A stretch of DNA of 8,771 nucleotides, taken from assembly GCA_024743015.1 (NCBI GenBank), contig JANSXJ010000139.1:1-8771 (forward strand), written 5' to 3'. Positions 2,937 to 8,771 of the stretch are shown here, piece after piece; position 1 is the first letter of the stretch; every line of letters starts with the position of its first letter. Position numbers and translations under genes: made by a program. Source of the stretch: Hyphomonas sp. Lineage in GTDB: Bacteria; Pseudomonadota; Alphaproteobacteria; Caulobacterales; Hyphomonadaceae. The notes under the pieces were generated by a model, which was not told the origin of the DNA, searched no databases, and saw nothing but the letters and a program-made list of their open reading frames with translations.

Positions 2937-3581
2937 ATGAAGGAAGTTTCTGAAACGCTGACGCTCCGATTTGGAGGCGAGGCTTTAACACTGTGCTTGT
3001 GCTGGCTGTTAACGCGTCGGGATGGTGTTCGTATCGGCGTCACGGACCACGATCGAGCCGTGTCGGCCGGAGGCGTCGTCTATGAGCCGAGTCCGGCGCT
3101 GGATGCGGGTCGGTTCGGGCAAAATGATAGCATGAAACCTGGGCAGGCGACCGCACAGGGCGTCCTGTCGAGCGATCTGATGACCTCGGAGGATCTGGAA
3201 ACTGGCGTTTGGGATGGCTGCCGTGTCGATGTGTATCAGGTTGACTGGACCTTGCCCGATGCCGGGCAGCGCCATGTCTGGAGCGGGTATCTGAGCGAAA
3301 TATCACGGAACCAAATGGGGCAGTTCACGGCTGAGCTCGTCTCGCTGAAGACCGATCTGGAGCGCCCTGTGGGCCGGGTGATGCAACGGCGTTGTGATGC
3401 CGTGCTCGGAGACGAAAGATGCGGACTAAGCGCTGACGGGCGCACTTGCGATCAACGGTTTGAAACTTGCCGGGAAGTTTTCGCAAACTCTGAGAACTAT
3501 CGCGGCTTTCCACATTTGCCCGGAACCGATTTCATTCTCTCCGGCCCGGCTGCAGCAAATAATGATGGAGGGCAGCGATGA
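2937..3581 (+). CDS. GTA baseplate hub protein (gp13, DUF2163 / BR0599 type), internally shortened
   Basis: 214 residues; RcGTA gp13 is about 297. Residues 10-145 follow the DUF2163 pattern: LTLCLCWLLTRRDGVRIGVTDHDR (15-40 region), GVLSSDLMTSEDLETGVWDG, the VDVYQVDW strand, and TAELVSLKTDLERPVGR. The C-terminal BR0599-type part carries RRCDAVLGDERCG, then CDQRFETCREVFANSENYRG and FPHLPGTDF. Four cysteines stand at 153, 162, 171 and 178 (C-x8-C-x8-C-x6-C). In related hub proteins (lambda gpL and, from memory, RcGTA gp13) such cysteines bind an Fe-S cluster. The 70-80 residue segment usually found between the second and third cysteines is reduced to 8 residues. ATG 2937 follows AGAGGA. The gene ends in an ATGA overlap with gp14. 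Confidence 0.88.
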   Translation: MKEVSETLTLRFGGEALTLCLCWLLTRRDGVRIGVTDHDRAVSAGGVVYEPSPALDAGRFGQNDSMKPGQATAQGVLSSDLMTSEDLETGVWDGCRVDVYQVDWTLPDAGQRHVWSGYLSEISRNQMGQFTAELVSLKTDLERPVGRVMQRRCDAVLGDERCGLSADGRTCDQRFETCREVFANSENYRGFPHLPGTDFILSGPAAANNDGGQR

Positions 3582-4030
3582 GCCGACCCGAGATCGTATC
3601 CGCTGCCAGGTCGTGGATCGGTACACCCTATCGCCATCAAGCGAGCGTGAAACATGTTGGGACCGATTGCCTGGGTCTGTTGCGCGGTGTCTGGCGTGAT
3701 GTACTGGGCGATGAACCGGAACCCGTTCCCGCCTATACACCAGATTGGGCCGAGGCGTTGAAACAGGAAACGCTGCTTCAGGCTGCTCGAAAACACCTGA
3801 ACGAAATCGTTCCGACGGCGGCGCAGCCGGGGGATGTGCTGCTCTTCAGAATGGGGTTGGGACACCCGGCGAAACACTGTGCGATCATTTCGGGAGACGC
3901 GCGGATCATACACGCGTATTGGGGACGGGCGGTTTGCGAGACGCGCCTTGTTCCCTGGTGGCAACGCAGAATTGTGGCGGCGTTTGAGTTTCCGAAAACG
4001 CGTCCTCACGCGCCACGCACGGCTGTGTGA
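3578..4030 (+). CDS. GTA NlpC/P60 family peptidase (gp14)
   Basis: 150 residues, the usual length for GTA gp14. It is an NlpC/P60 cysteine peptidase: EIVSAARSWIGTPYRHQASV, then the nucleophile motif GTDCLGLLRGVW (Cys31), an AAQPGDVLLFRMG strand, PAKHCAII with the probable catalytic His100, and RIIHAYWGRAV with His112 as the third polar residue. All three candidate catalytic residues are present, so it looks active. In RcGTA the protein sits in the tail tip and is thought to open peptidoglycan cross-links in the recipient's periplasm during DNA entry. ATG 3578 is in an ATGA overlap with gp13, with GGAGGG at 3567-3572. In RcGTA g15 follows directly; here a foreign-looking cassette intervenes. 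Confidence 0.93.
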   Translation: MSRPEIVSAARSWIGTPYRHQASVKHVGTDCLGLLRGVWRDVLGDEPEPVPAYTPDWAEALKQETLLQAARKHLNEIVPTAAQPGDVLLFRMGLGHPAKHCAIISGDARIIHAYWGRAVCETRLVPWWQRRIVAAFEFPKTRPHAPRTAV

Positions 4031-4040
4031 TCGAGGGTGA

Positions 4041-4069
4041 TTGGCAGTTGTGTGGAGCTGTTTCTAGAT
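4041..4069 (+). promoter_or_regulatory. Weak candidate promoter for the DM13 gene
   Basis: The 82-base gap between gp14 and the DM13 gene contains TTGGCA (4041-4046), a fair -35 box. At a 17-base spacing it is followed by CTAGAT (4064-4069), a poor -10 box. The gap is the only place in the 102-4030 run with room for a promoter, but the match is weak. Transcription from the upstream GTA operon is equally possible. Confidence 0.2.
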
Positions 4070-4112
4070 GGTCTGAATCGAACGAAACAGACCCCGATCC
4101 AGGAGACCTAAA

Positions 4113-4547
4113 ATGAAACTCACCCAAGCCGCTTTCGCTGCTCTTGCCCTCGGTATGACCGGCATGATGATGGCAGCCCCTGTCAGTGCGCAAACCTCTA
4201 TTGCCCAGCAAGCTGCCTTTGCGACCTCGGGCGACTTCATCAAGAAGTCCAAAAAGCTCAAAGGGTCCTGGTCGGTGGTTGAGCGCGACGGGAAGTCGTT
4301 TATTGTGTTCGCGGATGATTTTCGCGCGGCCAATGGCCCAGACCTGAAAGTCTTCCTGTCCCCGAAAAACGTTTCTGATGCGACCGGCAAGAACGCCGTG
4401 GAGGGGTCGCTCAACATTGGCGAGTTGAAGAAGACCAAGGGCACACAGGAATATGAAGTCCCGGCGGGAGTGGATCTGTCTCAGTATGGCAGCGTCCTGG
4501 TTCACTGCGAAGCCTATTCTGTCCTTTGGGGTGGCGGCAATCTGTAG
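4113..4547 (+). CDS. Secreted DM13-domain protein inserted between GTA g14 and g15
   Basis: 144 residues. Residues 1-26 form a Sec signal peptide: MKLTQ, a hydrophobic Ala/Leu/Met core, and APVSA followed by Gln27 as the likely cleavage site. The mature part is a DM13 domain: SGDFIKKSKKLKGSWSVVE, then FIVFADDFRAANGPDLKVFL (the G-P-D-L-x-V-[FY]-L core), SLNIGELKKTKGTQEYEVPA, and the end YGSVLVHCEAYSVLWGGGNL with the family's conserved Cys (Cys132). DM13 domains have been proposed to be redox or electron-transfer related, but no function is proven; the protein should be periplasmic or extracellular. It is not a known GTA component. It has its own leader and ribosome site (AGGAG 4101-4105), and a strong terminator lies 24 bases after its stop. 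This makes it an autonomous, moron-like cassette. There is no sign of decay. Confidence 0.88.
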   Translation: MKLTQAAFAALALGMTGMMMAAPVSAQTSIAQQAAFATSGDFIKKSKKLKGSWSVVERDGKSFIVFADDFRAANGPDLKVFLSPKNVSDATGKNAVEGSLNIGELKKTKGTQEYEVPAGVDLSQYGSVLVHCEAYSVLWGGGNL

Positions 4548-4571
4548 GCGCTAACTCAAATGCAATCACTC

Positions 4572-4603
4572 AAGGCCGGTCAGTTTCCTGACTGGCCTTT
4601 TTT
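4572..4603 (+). terminator. Rho-independent terminator after the DM13 gene, just upstream of g15
   Basis: AAGGCCGGTCAG (4572-4583), a TTTC loop (4584-4587) and CTGACTGGCCTT (4588-4599) form a 12-bp stem with one G-U pair. A six-T run (4598-4603) follows, then ATT. This is a textbook intrinsic terminator. It ends only a few bases before the ribosome site of g15 (4607-4611), so g15 has no room for a promoter of its own downstream of it. g15 transcription must come by read-through or from a promoter inside the DM13 gene. Confidence 0.92.
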
Positions 4604-4606
4604 ATT

Positions 4607-4611
4607 GGGAG
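4607..4611 (+). promoter_or_regulatory. Ribosome binding site for the TTG start of g15
   Basis: GGGAG, 10 bases upstream of TTG 4622. No ATG or GTG lies in frame between the terminator and the conserved N-terminus of the protein, so TTG 4622 is the start. Confidence 0.6.
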
Positions 4612-4621
4612 ATTATCACTC

Positions 4622-7390
4622 TTGGCGGAAATCATATTATCCCAGGCAGGCGCAGTGGCAGGATCCGCTTTGCTTCCGAACGGGATCGGATTGCTCGGGC
4701 AAACCATATCCGGCGCCGTTCTTGGTGAGGCGGTCGGAAGGTTCGCCGGGCGCGCAATCGATGCATCCCTCTCGCCGGTATCGGAAGGGCCTCGCATAAG
4801 TGCCTTGCACGTTATGGAGAGCCGGGAAGGATCCGCGTTACCGCTCATCTACGGACGAGCCCGGGTCGGCGGACAGGCGATCTGGGCCTCGCGCTTCAAG
4901 GAAAACCGAACAGAGCAATCGGCGGGAAAAGGCGGGCCGAAATACTCGGAATATTCGTACACAATCAGCTTCGCCGTCGCATTGTGTCAGGGTCCCATCA
5001 CACGAGTGGATCGCGTATGGGCTAATGGTGACCTGCTCACACTGAGCCAATTGAACTGGCGTCTTTACTCGGGGACGGAAAAACAACTGCCAGACCCATT
5101 GATTGAGGCGGTTGAAGGCCGTGGCGCTGCTCCTGCTTACAAAGGCACGGCCTATATTGTGTTCGAGGATTTCCCGCTCGACGCCTTCGGCAACCACCTG
5201 CCGCAACTCTCTTTTGAAGTGGTGCGCGCAAGTCAGAACACATCCGACCGCTTGAGCGAGTCGGTGGACGGCGTGAATATCATTCCGGCGAGTGGCGAGT
5301 TTGTATACGCGACCTCGAACGTCAGGGAACGGCGCTTTCCCGGGATCGAGCGCGCTTTGAATATGAACAATGCGCGAGGTGAAGCCGACTTCCTGGTCTC
5401 GCTTGATCAGTTGGGTCAGGATTTGCCAAAAGTTTCACAGTCGGCGCTGACGGTAGCGTGGTTCGGTACGGACTTACGGGCTGGTGAATGTCGCATCGCG
5501 CCGGGTGTTGAGGAGCGCGACCGCTCAACGGTTCCTTACACCTGGTCGGTAAGCAGTATCGGCCGCGACGGCGCGCATCTGATTTCTCGCGCGAACACGC
5601 GTCCCAATTACGGTGGGACGCCAGCGGACCAAGCCGTCATCGAAGGCATTCAGGCGCTTAAAGCTGCCGGGCATTTGGTTACGCTGTCACCCTTCCTGTT
5701 GATGGATGTTCCAGAAGGGAATGGATTGCCCGATCCATATGGAAGTGCTGAACAAGCTCCCTTCCCATGGCGCGGACGGATCTCCGTCATGAGCGATCAA
5801 ACGGCTGCCGCGCGGGAGGCTATTGCCTCATTTGTCGGGGAGGACTGGGGGAACGGTTTTCGTCACTTCATCCTCCATCATGCGCGGCTTGCGGTAGAGG
5901 CAGGCGGAGTGGAAGCGTTTCTGATCGGTTCGGAGATGGTCGGCCTCACGCGCGTTCGCGATGATCAGGGACGATTTCCATTTGTTGAAGCGCTGGTTGA
6001 GATCGCTCAAGAGGTACGAGAAATTCTTGGGCCAGGAGTCAAAATTTCTTACGCCGCTGACTGGACAGAGTATGGCGCTTTCACGCCGCCCGATGGCAGC
6101 GGCGACGTCCTGTTTCCACTCGATCTGCTTTGGGCGTCCGAGAATATCGATTTCGTCGGCTTGGATTGGTACCCGCCAATGTCAGACTGGCGTGATGGTG
6201 AGGAGCATCTCGACGCTCTCGCTGGCTTTGAAAAGATCGAGGACGAAGCTTATTTGCTGCGGAATCTGACGGGTGGGGAGGCATATGAATGGTATTACGG
6301 TTCTGACGCAGATCGGGGCGCGCAGGTTCGCACGCCGATTGAAGATCCAGCGCATGGTGAGCCCTGGGTGTTTCGTCAAAAAGACCTCGCCAATTGGTGG
6401 TCGCGAGCGCATCACGAGCGCCCAAATGGCTTACGGAGTTCGCAGCCGACATCCTGGGTTCCCGAATCCAAACCCATACGCCTCATTGAACTCGGCGTCC
6501 CGGCGATCGACAAAGGCACCAACGCTCCAAATCTGTTCTATGACCCCAAGAGCAGCGAGAGCGCTTTGCCGCATTTTTCTAATGGCGGGCGAGATGACCT
6601 GATCCAGCGCCGCGCTCTCTCGGTTGCAAATACTTATTGGCGGGCGCAGCCCATGGTGGAGCAAGTCTTGAACTGGGCCTGGGATGGGCGTCCGTGGCCT
6701 GATTATCCGTCGCGGGAGGACATTTGGGGAGATGGTCCCAACTGGCAGTTCGGTCACTGGCTGAATGGGCGTGCCAGCCTGATCAACGTGGCCGAGGTGG
6801 TCGATGATGTGTGCGCGCGAGCGGGTGTTTCAGTTGATACGAGGGATCTGGACGGCGTCATTGAAGGCGTGGTTCTCGACTCGGTTATGTCAGTTGCCAG
6901 TGCCCTCTCTCCCCTCGCCAGCGCTTACGAGTTTGCGTTCAAGGATACAGGCGCGGGTCTCAGTGCAGGGCATGAGGGAGCAATTTCAGTCATCTCCGTA
7001 AGCTCGGAGCGAATTCTCGAGGACACCTATGTCGCGACGCGCGATCTGCTCGACAAACAGGCGAGCGCGGTCACTCTGCAATATGTCTCTGGCGATTCGT
7101 CTTACGAACCTGCGATGGTTGAATCGAGGATGGATCTGCCCGCTTCGGATCTGAAAGTAGGTTTGACCTATCCTATTGTCTTGAGCGAGGGACGCGCACA
7201 GACATTAGCCGAGCGGCGACTAATGGACCTGCGCGAAAGCAGATCGCGATCAATCGCGCTCCCTCCTGGGGAAGCCATCGGTCTGGAGCCCCTTGATCGT
7301 CTCGATTTGGATGGGGCGGAATGGATTGTGGACCGGATCGAAGAGCAGGGGCTGCAGCGACAATTGCGATTGCGACCGGCACGCTCTTAA
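4622..7390 (+). CDS. GTA megatron / host-specificity protein (gp15), N-terminal 922 residues
   Basis: Homologue of RcGTA gp15 (about 1304 residues), the large trimeric tail-tip protein. It starts with TTG; the N-terminus is the usual Gly/Ala-rich hydrophobic stretch ending GRFAGRAIDASL. Residues about 55-205 are the conserved hub part: PLIYGRARVGGQAIWASRFK, SYTISFAVALCQGPI, PAYKGTAYIVFEDFPL, FGNHLPQLSFEVVR. Residues about 325-680 are the GTA TIM-barrel-like (glycoside-hydrolase-fold) domain, with ADWTEY (Asp480), FVGLDWYPPMSDWRDG (Asp515) and LIELGVPAIDKGTN (Glu623) as conserved acidic positions. Residues about 715-915 are the Phage-tail_3 domain, closing with LDRLDLDGAEWIVDRIEEQG. The frame then meets TAA at 7388-7390. 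The same frame continues open into the C-terminal domain, so this is either a nonsense-split gene or a two-subunit version. Confidence 0.9.
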   Translation: MAEIILSQAGAVAGSALLPNGIGLLGQTISGAVLGEAVGRFAGRAIDASLSPVSEGPRISALHVMESREGSALPLIYGRARVGGQAIWASRFKENRTEQSAGKGGPKYSEYSYTISFAVALCQGPITRVDRVWANGDLLTLSQLNWRLYSGTEKQLPDPLIEAVEGRGAAPAYKGTAYIVFEDFPLDAFGNHLPQLSFEVVRASQNTSDRLSESVDGVNIIPASGEFVYATSNVRERRFPGIERALNMNNARGEADFLVSLDQLGQDLPKVSQSALTVAWFGTDLRAGECRIAPGVEERDRSTVPYTWSVSSIGRDGAHLISRANTRPNYGGTPADQAVIEGIQALKAAGHLVTLSPFLLMDVPEGNGLPDPYGSAEQAPFPWRGRISVMSDQTAAAREAIASFVGEDWGNGFRHFILHHARLAVEAGGVEAFLIGSEMVGLTRVRDDQGRFPFVEALVEIAQEVREILGPGVKISYAADWTEYGAFTPPDGSGDVLFPLDLLWASENIDFVGLDWYPPMSDWRDGEEHLDALAGFEKIEDEAYLLRNLTGGEAYEWYYGSDADRGAQVRTPIEDPAHGEPWVFRQKDLANWWSRAHHERPNGLRSSQPTSWVPESKPIRLIELGVPAIDKGTNAPNLFYDPKSSESALPHFSNGGRDDLIQRRALSVANTYWRAQPMVEQVLNWAWDGRPWPDYPSREDIWGDGPNWQFGHWLNGRASLINVAEVVDDVCARAGVSVDTRDLDGVIEGVVLDSVMSVASALSPLASAYEFAFKDTGAGLSAGHEGAISVISVSSERILEDTYVATRDLLDKQASAVTLQYVSGDSSYEPAMVESRMDLPASDLKVGLTYPIVLSEGRAQTLAERRLMDLRESRSRSIALPPGEAIGLEPLDRLDLDGAEWIVDRIEEQGLQRQLRLRPARS
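7388..7390 (+). other. In-frame TAA that splits the gp15 reading frame
   Basis: TAA in the context CGC TCT TAA GCG CCG. The upstream and downstream coding parts are in the same frame, with 17 open codons (7391-7441) between this stop and the first usable start, GTG 7442. No indel is needed to explain the split; one base substitution would do it (for example from CAA, GAA, TCA or TTA). Confidence 0.85.
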
Positions 7391-7441: not shown

Positions 7442-8296
7442 GTGGCCGCCGACCCTGTTCTCGTGATCGTTGATGGCCCTCCACTCGATCATCTCGACGG
7501 CTCTGCTCTTTGGGCGGCAGCCACCGGAGACCCTTGGACGGGATCGGTTTCTCTCCATACGGGTGAGGCACTCGATTCTCTCTCGGTGATTGCGACGCTG
7601 CAACTCCCCGCCGGTATGGGGCAATTGTTGAGTTCGCTGGAGCCTGGACCATTGGGACGATGGGATGGTGCCAATGTCATCGATCTCTACATGCCGGGTG
7701 AAGAATTCTCATCAGTCAGTGCAGACGCCGTGCTATCTGGAACTAATCGGCTTTTGATCAAGAACGATCTGGGATGGGAGCTTTTGGGGTGGCGAGATGT
7801 GGAACTGGTCGGTGTCGATCATTGGCACCTTTCGGGACTTGTTCGGGGTCTCGCCGGAAGCTCGGTTCTCAGCGTGCAGTCGGATGCTGTTGTCGTGCTC
7901 GCCAATGACCGGTTGACGCCGATCTCGTTTAGCGAGGAAGACATCGGCAGGACGCTGCTCGCGCAGATCGACTCCGGAGAGGTCTTGTCATTCGAGTATC
8001 AGGATCGCGCGTCCTTGCCGTGGCGCATCGGTCATTTGCGTGCCCGAATGTTGAACGGTGAGCACCTCATCAGCTGGACCCCACGCGGATCGCAGTTCTC
8101 AAACAATTGGGAGCTGGAGGATATCGAATTTGATCAACAGTTTGTCGTAGAGCTGTATTGGAACGACGCCCTGGTGTCCCGAACGATTCAGAGCGAGACT
8201 GAACTTGGTATATCCTTGGATTTTGTGGACATGGTTCGGGTTGCGGCCATGTCAGTTCAGGGCCGAGTGGGCGAGTGGGGTTCCATTCCCGTGTGA
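7442..8296 (+). CDS. GTA megatron (gp15), C-terminal domain as a separate frame
   Basis: 284 residues from GTG 7442. This matches the C-terminal domain of RcGTA gp15 (Rcc01698-like): PVLVIVDGPPLDH (the start of the domain in full-length homologues), PGPLGRWDGANVIDLYMPG, AVLSGTNRLLIKNDLGWELL, RDVELVGVDHWHLSGLVRGL, a DIGRTLLAQ stretch, and WTPRGS. The domain is complete and free of stops or frameshifts. GTG 7442 has only a poor ribosome site (GGAA 7427-7430 region), so independent translation would be weak. It could be expressed by reinitiation after the TAA or by stop-codon read-through, or it may be silent. Reckoned as one protein the two parts would total about 1224 residues, near the RcGTA length. 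It should mediate receptor contact at the tail tip if expressed. Confidence 0.8.
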   Translation: MAADPVLVIVDGPPLDHLDGSALWAAATGDPWTGSVSLHTGEALDSLSVIATLQLPAGMGQLLSSLEPGPLGRWDGANVIDLYMPGEEFSSVSADAVLSGTNRLLIKNDLGWELLGWRDVELVGVDHWHLSGLVRGLAGSSVLSVQSDAVVVLANDRLTPISFSEEDIGRTLLAQIDSGEVLSFEYQDRASLPWRIGHLRARMLNGEHLISWTPRGSQFSNNWELEDIEFDQQFVVELYWNDALVSRTIQSETELGISLDFVDMVRVAAMSVQGRVGEWGSIPV

Positions 8297-8305
8297 GCTG
8301 CTTAA

Positions 8306-8334
8306 GTGTGCACCGGAATGAGTCCGGAACACAC
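8306..8334 (+). promoter_or_regulatory. Hairpin in the g15-dnaJ intergenic region
   Basis: GTGTG CA CCGGA (8306-8317), loop ATGAG (8318-8322), TCCGG AA CACAC (8323-8334): two 5-bp stems separated by a 2x2 internal mismatch. There is no T run, so it is not a clear intrinsic terminator. It fills most of the 44-base gap and may act as an mRNA-end or leader structure for the next gene. The loop contains the ATG of an 8-codon leader frame (8318-8344) whose TGA overlaps the dnaJ start. Confidence 0.35.
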
Positions 8335-8340
8335 GCGGCG

Positions 8341-8771
8341 ATGAGTAAAGACCTTTATAAAATTCTCGGCGTTTCGCGCACAGCAGGTGCCGACGAAATC
8401 CGTCGCGCGTATAAACGCAAAGCAAAAGACTCACACCCTGATCTCCATCCGGGTGACGCCCAGAAAGCCGAGGCCTTCAAGTCGGCCTCAACAGCGTATG
8501 AAATCCTCGGCGATGAGCAGAAGCGCGGTCAATATGATCGCGGTGAGATCGATGGCGACGGCAATCCAACCGGGTTTGGCGGGCATCAAGGCTTTGGTGG
8601 GGCGGGCCAGACGGCTGGCGGGTTTCAGGGCGACCCGTTTGAAGAGATCCTGTCAGGCATGTTCGGCGGCGGACGTCGCAGGCCGGGTCCGCGCAAGGGG
8701 AGCGATATCCGCTATCGCGTTGAGATTTCGTTTGAAGATTCGATCACCGGCGCGCGACGGGAAATGACCGT
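8341..8771 (+). CDS. DnaJ/CbpA-type J-domain chaperone, 3' end outside the window
   Basis: 143 codons are visible before the window ends. Residues 1-68 are a J domain: DLYKILGVSRTAGADEIRRA, the HPD motif that stimulates DnaK ATPase (residues 32-34), then YEILGDEQKRGQYDRG. A Gly/Phe-rich linker follows (about 79-112), and then KGSDIRYRVEISFEDSITGA, the start of the DnaJ C-terminal substrate-binding domain. The linker passes directly into this domain and no cysteine is visible so far, so it is probably a type II (CbpA-like) J protein without a zinc-finger domain rather than canonical DnaJ. It is a co-chaperone of DnaK in the cytoplasm. It is not part of the GTA, and it likely marks the chromosomal flank. 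No good ribosome site is seen before ATG 8341. Confidence 0.92.
   Translation, partial: MSKDLYKILGVSRTAGADEIRRAYKRKAKDSHPDLHPGDAQKAEAFKSASTAYEILGDEQKRGQYDRGEIDGDGNPTGFGGHQGFGGAGQTAGGFQGDPFEEILSGMFGGGRRRPGPRKGSDIRYRVEISFEDSITGARREMT

Follow-up and report, generated by a model that had tools for sequence, protein, structure and literature searches.

A moron-like DM13 cassette between g14 and g15 of a Henriciella gene transfer agent cluster, probably serving the host cell envelope

Within part of the genus Henriciella, the gene transfer agent (GTA) cluster is interrupted by a small cassette encoding a DM13 protein, which sits between the late structural genes g14 and g15. The cassette is a real, conserved and clade-limited insertion. 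We found it intact in three lineages in which the GTA cluster has decayed, and on this ground we favor the reading that it is a self-contained, moron-like cassette serving the cell envelope of the host rather than the GTA, a reading to which we give a probability of roughly two in three.

Layout of the window and the insertion joint

The window, meaning the whole 8,771-nucleotide stretch of DNA analysed here, corresponds to the right end of an RcGTA-type cluster and comes from a Henriciella-group genome (Hyphomonadaceae; labelled G000) whose assembly consists of 585 contigs and is 87.5% complete. The named genomes with which it was compared are mostly MAGs. Genes in the window run in the order connector, tail completion, tube, g10-like, tape-related, DUF2460 (g12), g13, g14, DM13, g15 and a dnaJ-like host gene (Table 1), and Pfam matches place the g6–g15 families in the canonical RcGTA order. 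The cluster shares these families, their order and a g14 of 150 amino acids with the GTA of Rhodobacter capsulatus; it differs in that the cassette separates g14 from g15 and that several genomes of this clade have a ParA-like gene between the terminase and portal genes. The RcGTA g13, g14 and g15 products are described as hub, peptidase and megatron in PMC7296036.

Table 1. Features around the DM13 cassette, in window coordinates
Feature	Position	Strand	Remarks
g14, NlpC/P60 peptidase	3578..4030	+	PF00877, E 3.8e-8; stop codon inside the DM13 upstream element
Block kept in GTA-less G024	3975..4621	+	flanked there by portal and rcc01698 remnants
Upstream element GTGAT-N4-GGTGATTGGC[AG]	4027..4046	+	direct repeat ten bases apart; overlaps the -35-like TTGGCA
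Putative sigma70-type promoter TTGGCA-N16-TCTAGA	4041..4068	+	proposed from conservation only; 16-base spacer by eye
DM13 protein, 144 aa, predicted Sec-exported	4113..4547	+	PF10517; invariant H131-C132-E133
Intrinsic-terminator-like hairpin and T tract	4572..4603	+	hairpin proper 4572–4599; folding z -4.5
g15 (megatron), first 922 codons	4622..7390	+	ends at a single in-frame TAA, 7388–7390
g15 C-terminal part (Rcc01698_C)	7442..8296	+	PF23666; same frame as 4622–7390
dnaJ-like host gene bounding the GTA cluster	8341..8771	+	marker; present in 29/29 genomes of the genus

The first-pass annotation had read from this DNA a g14 end at 4030, a DM13 gene at 4113–4547 and a terminator at 4572–4603 next to g15, and these positions were borne out. 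Its description of a moron-like cassette inside a GTA cluster also holds: we observed an extra gene with its own hairpin and a conserved upstream element, inserted in a restricted clade. The g14-DM13-g15 order is present in 6 of the 21 genus genomes with a g14 match (G000, G008, G012, G015, G022 and G026), and in a seventh genome, G006, DM13 adjoins a g14 remnant. In all 14 of the other g14-bearing genomes of the genus, g15 follows g14 directly, so that DM13 is an extra gene between otherwise adjacent genes, as expected of a moron. Finding the same gene at the same place in five genomes besides G000 excludes chance as the source of the arrangement. DM13 is not confined to one genome as a near-copy of an unlinked host gene; it occurs in 11 of the 29 genus genomes (g14 matches occur in 21), and the 87.5% complete G000 assembly shows a single copy.

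The synteny search proposed in that annotation gave a positive result only within the genus. Elsewhere in the family, seven genomes have both genes (G034, G036, G061, G062, G063, G085 and G106), and none has them together. DM13 was found in 58 of 398 genomes of an order-level sample; 48 of these carriers lie outside the genus, and of the 46 besides G034 and G036, 34 have a g14 match, adjacent to DM13 in none. The closest pair on one contig lies 51 kb apart (G378), and for pairs on different contigs of these fragmented bins the location does not prove distance, the DM13 genes of G085 and G062 being near a contig end.

The joint itself suggests how the cassette was accommodated. In non-carriers, g14 ends in FSFPGLED in six of the nine sequences shown, with g15 starting within a few bases, and in carriers g14 breaks off after FxFP. 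The g14 stop is a TGA belonging to the GTGAT repeats in four of the five readable carriers (the G026 end is not readable): the first GTGAT in G000 and G012, the second in G008 and G015; G022 uses a different TGA. We therefore infer that the end of g14 gave way to the cassette, which in most carriers also provided the g14 stop codon. On this reconstruction, the cassette would have entered at the end of g14, with the GTA cluster acting as a tolerated landing site.

Phage morons are extra autonomous genes located between the structural genes of lambdoid and other prophages. The DM13 cassette resembles them in being an extra gene between conserved structural genes, with a terminator-like hairpin and a likely benefit to the host; like them it may also have its own promoter, to judge from a conserved -35-like box and an operator-like repeat. 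It is unlike them in sitting in a GTA, a kind of element not known to spread itself, and in persisting after the surrounding element has decayed, which can be followed at the base level in an alignment. We found no paper that joins DM13 or Henriciella with a gene transfer agent, and the accessible portions of PMC11409702 and PMC9836097 report no insertion between GTA g14 and g15. The g11–g15 region is described as variable, with insertions, in related phages in PMC11409702, so that insertion in the region as such has parallels.

In the window, g15 begins with a TTG codon preceded by GGGAG. The in-frame TAA divides it into 922 and 284 codons; g15 is one ORF of 1222–1231 codons in G008, G015, G012, G022 and G026, and a g15 query from G015 aligns across the split as a single stretch. 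The TAA is either the onset of GTA decay in G000 or an assembly error. By the domain limits in PMC7296036, it would remove the fiber-binding part of the megatron.

Past dnaJ, loci of the genus encode a small PepSY-like protein (profile match below the cut-off), an OmpR-type response regulator and a histidine kinase (for example, L051 9580–12035). This layout is found alike in DM13-bearing and DM13-less loci, and the regulator is 84–100% identical to that of G015 wherever a locus extends that far.

Sequence features of the cassette and its product

The hairpin that follows DM13 has 12 pairs and is trailed by a T tract. RNA from positions 4548–4621 folds at -24.2 kcal/mol, compared with a mean of -13.3 for shuffled sequences, and none of 200 shuffles folded as low. 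At the level of sequence, the cassette thus has a terminator of its own. Hairpins occupy the same spot in the carriers, in G024 and in G006, and in G001 the hairpin is partly eroded, as judged by eye.

A consensus promoter scan upstream of the window DM13 gene found none. When the regions upstream of 18 DM13 genes were compared, 12 proved to share a GTGATTGG core, located at -71 to -97 relative to the start; these are 11 of the 12 genus copies compared and G036. The core region ends in a -35-like TTGGCA (8 cases), TTGGCG (3) or TTGGTG (1). The second half of the upstream element overlaps this -35-like box, and a -10-like box lies 16 bases further on, a spacing set by eye. The core accompanies the GTA-linked copies except that of G012, the copies left behind in G024 and G001, both GTA-less, and diverged, unlinked chromosomal copies in G028, G014, G036 and contig C5 of G024 (G024:C5); it is absent upstream of DM13 in G012, G034, G059, G044 and G052. 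A thirteenth core, in G051, lies at -40 without the remainder of the element.

Searching six genomes, we found one perfect match to GTGAT-N4-GGTGATTGGC[AG] in each of G000, G008, G015, G024 and G001, all at DM13. Four sites have one mismatch: two at the unlinked DM13 genes of G028 and G024:C5, one within an ORF of G024:C11, and one at G001:C50. With up to two mismatches, the six genomes contain 46 sites (6–11 per genome, against 0–1 for a reversed control pattern). Of these we inspected 30, finding 7 at DM13, 19 others within ORFs and 4 between ORFs, a label that is itself weak, given that the same mechanical caller placed five of the seven DM13 sites in ORFs (two in an extended DM13 frame and three in opposite-strand frames). 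The excess of weak matches over the control neither shows nor excludes a wider regulon. The element accompanies DM13 and, judging from these matches, may also not be exclusive to it. The G001:C50 site (L174, ~1501) is located between ORFs. A 253-aa ORF carrying a YjbR domain begins 102 bases after it, and this YjbR-family gene is a possible second target of the same putative regulator.

Taken as a transcription unit, DM13 would be expressed from its own sigma70-type promoter, under the control of a regulator bound to the GTGAT direct repeat; its transcript would stop at the hairpin, before g15. DM13 may also be induced together with the GTA, or be reached by transcripts running on from the GTA operon.

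The DM13 ORF scores well above the PF10517 cut-off (E 5.4e-16; 59.6 bits against 25). The signal peptide proposed in the first-pass annotation is recognizable by eye as Sec-type, with a Lys near the start, a hydrophobic core and an ending in ...APVSAQ. C132 is the sole cysteine of the protein, leaving the signal region with none and hence with no lipobox. This cysteine is invariant in all 14 rows of the DM13 alignment, and the HCE triplet in all 24 rows of a larger comparison; a weak match in G039 (L018) that lacks it was excluded from alignments and trees. PF10517 also includes the Knickkopf DM13 domains and SaeP of S. aureus, with which the window protein has in common a score above the Pfam cut-off, a conserved cysteine and a predicted extracytoplasmic location. 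It differs from them as a stand-alone domain of ~110 residues behind a signal peptide, with no DOMON domain and no lipobox.

A structure model of the protein has pLDDT of at least 90 at 101 of 144 residues and below 50 at residues 1–33. Foldseek alone returned no structural match to the model at E ≤0.001, and a second structural comparison gave SOD-like folds; we assign, with modest confidence, a predicted Greek-key beta sandwich of the Cu,Zn-SOD type. Cu,Zn superoxide dismutase is defined by a set of histidine metal ligands, and we reject that identity for DM13, which does not have the set. Sequence searches of the PDB (best E 0.032, not meaningful) and of PHROGs (best E 0.068) were negative. 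The protein is predicted to pass through Sec into the periplasm, where the invariant His-Cys-Glu would bind a metal or pass electrons, and we consider redox or metal chemistry a likely role for this predicted periplasmic beta-sandwich protein. The bacterial function of the DM13 family is poorly known, and the cassette provides a small candidate periplasmic member.

Persistence of DM13 after loss of GTA genes

Eight of the 29 genus genomes have no g14. In one of them, G024, positions 7868–8517 of the locus (L051) align to window 3975–4621 at 85%, and the next aligned window base is 8238. In the G024 locus, the first 20–26 codons of the portal gene pass directly into the kept block, which stops at the base that precedes the g15 start; ~60 bases further on come the final 18 rcc01698 codons and then dnaJ. 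In G001, the ParA-like gene lies on one side of the cassette and a short 5' end of g15 on the other; the retained block starts at the end of g14 and stops within the first g15 codons. G006 keeps g14 codons 98–149, DM13, the hairpin, g15 codons 1–41 and g15 from about codon 929, its DM13 spanning two contig ends that share 21 bases. The breakpoints differ among the three genomes, which occupy three separate branches of an rpoB and dnaJ tree: G024 beside the g14-bearing G000 (dnaJ only; support 86), G001 as sister to G026 (support 100), and G006 alone. By contrast with an accessory, which would share the fate of the GTA cluster, DM13 is kept intact in all three.

Three further genomes, G028, G003 and G014, each have what looks like one deletion, which starts in the portal region and extends either into g15 or as far as dnaJ, and the site is lost. 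G028 and G014 carry DM13 elsewhere, and G003 has none. In this part of the genus there are thus six GTA decays, with DM13 in place in three, elsewhere in two and absent in one. The loss of GTA genes from G003, together with its lack of any DM13, indicates that DM13 is dispensable.

Across the genus there are 13 DM13 matches in 11 genomes, none with an internal stop. Comparison of G000 with GTA-less G024 gave a dN/dS of 0.025 (50.5 synonymous and 6.5 nonsynonymous differences), and comparison of GTA-less G001 with G026 gave 0.088, with rough dS values of 0.79 and 1.0, respectively. Polarized changes number 8 synonymous and 1 nonsynonymous on the G024 branch and 9 and 5 on the G000 branch, with 32 and 2 unplaceable; the G024 branch shows no sign of relaxed selection after a GTA loss that may be recent. 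These substitution patterns indicate strong purifying selection on DM13 in GTA-less lineages. They also indicate stronger constraint than on its GTA neighbor g14: for G000 against G008 and G015, pN is 0.047 and 0.050 for DM13, 0.134 and 0.103 for g14 (140 codons; dS saturated), and 0.070 and 0.051 for dnaJ (142 codons).

The first-pass annotation had suggested that DM13 is an exported GTA accessory that could act at the envelope of the producer or recipient; in a fuller form of this proposal, it would be made with the particles and would owe its later retention to a second role. DM13 has the same orientation as the two late structural genes that flank it, and this arrangement is maintained in six genomes together with g14 and g15, which is consistent with the proposal. 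Survival of the gene after the flanking deletions, an upstream element common to unlinked copies, stronger conservation than that of g14, and the lack of adjacency to g14 in all genomes outside the genus that were found to have both genes speak against it, and we regard it as improbable. If DM13 were instead near-neutral cargo and the GTA deletions had simply happened to end around the cassette, its survival would require no benefit at all. GTA genes are often deleted in this part of Henriciella, the losses may be recent, there are only three cases, and G003 does without the gene; against these points stand the low dN/dS values, the intact reading frames of all 13 matches, the 8:1 ratio on the GTA-less G024 branch and the differing breakpoints. 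We consider chance survival unlikely as the whole account, although the chance position of deletion ends could explain in part why deletions spared DM13.

A specific function can also be imagined, in which DM13 would be a SaeP-like extracytoplasmic helper of the OmpR-type regulator and kinase past dnaJ, and the GTGAT direct repeat would be the binding site of that regulator. The analogy is with the C-terminal part of SaeP, as described in PMC7189620, and the PepSY-like gene, regulator and kinase do lie two to four genes downstream of DM13 in G024 and G001. Genomes without DM13 have the PepSY-like gene and regulator too, however, and G021 has the kinase as well; no regulator or kinase homologue is labelled around the unlinked DM13 genes of G024:C5, G028 and G014; and DM13 has no lipoprotein signal. 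This possibility is very remote. We favor service to the host envelope, with a cassette that, after entry, would have been inherited mostly vertically and retained by selection as the GTA genes around it were lost. For the question of why GTA clusters persist, the DM13 cassette offers a natural control: partial persistence of a GTA locus need not imply selection for gene transfer.

Origin of the cassette and a second passenger of the cluster

The DM13 tree agrees with the species tree for G000, G024, G008 and G015, and for G026 and G001. In the unconstrained tree, the G006 copy groups with unlinked copies (93/85). Forcing the nine site copies into one clade costs 9.98 log units and is not rejected (p-AU 0.084), nor is a single clade of 12 of the 13 genus copies, with the distant second copy of G012 left out (p-AU 0.459). 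The history may be one insertion with later moves or repeated insertion at the same joint.

The unlinked DM13 genes of G024:C5 and G028 have, within ~5 kb, a tyrosine integrase gene as well as a Toprim/DUF3987 or DUF5906 gene. These integrases suggest that the two copies may ride on integrated elements. Phage cargo was rejected as a source: a search of 50,697 phage records at E 0.01 yielded no relative of DM13. Two DM13 peptide patterns gave 229 matches in IMG/VR viral contigs, none confirmed, and a plasmid search with DM13 gave 9 distant matches, all below 60% identity.

We also observed a ParA-like ATPase gene on the opposite strand between the terminase and portal genes in G008, G015, G028, G003 and G014, with remnants in G024 and G001. 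A small gene of ~140 aa lies behind it in L051 and L061. ParA (L051 6284–7621; L052 989–1897; L053 15109–16017; G000:C519:2876–3778) occurs in 10 of the 29 genus genomes. Its identity to the G024 copy is 93–99%, except for 85% in G022, and it persists despite GTA gene loss in G024, G001, G028, G003 and G014. In G024, the small gene and ParA occur a second time behind the unlinked DM13 gene (L061 8656–10570), near the tyrosine integrase and Toprim/DUF3987 pair; the second ParA protein is 99% identical to that at the GTA site, and the DNA is 88.7% identical to the GTA-site pair.

A broader, tentative reading, which we consider rather unlikely, is that GTA clusters act as chromosomal harbors: the DM13 cassette and the ParA-like gene with its small companion would have entered the same GTA lineage at two joints, both outliving the GTA, and the DM13 terminator would also starve the megatron gene, making the passenger a help in wrecking its carrier. 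The hairpin before g15 may be harmful to the GTA. A complete GTA is lacking in 6 of 12 genomes of the DM13-bearing part of the genus, compared with 1 of 14 in the other half (Fisher p 0.026); counting G007, G023 and G027 as DM13-less makes the contrast 6 of 12 against 3 of 17 (p 0.106), both values being uncorrected for kinship.
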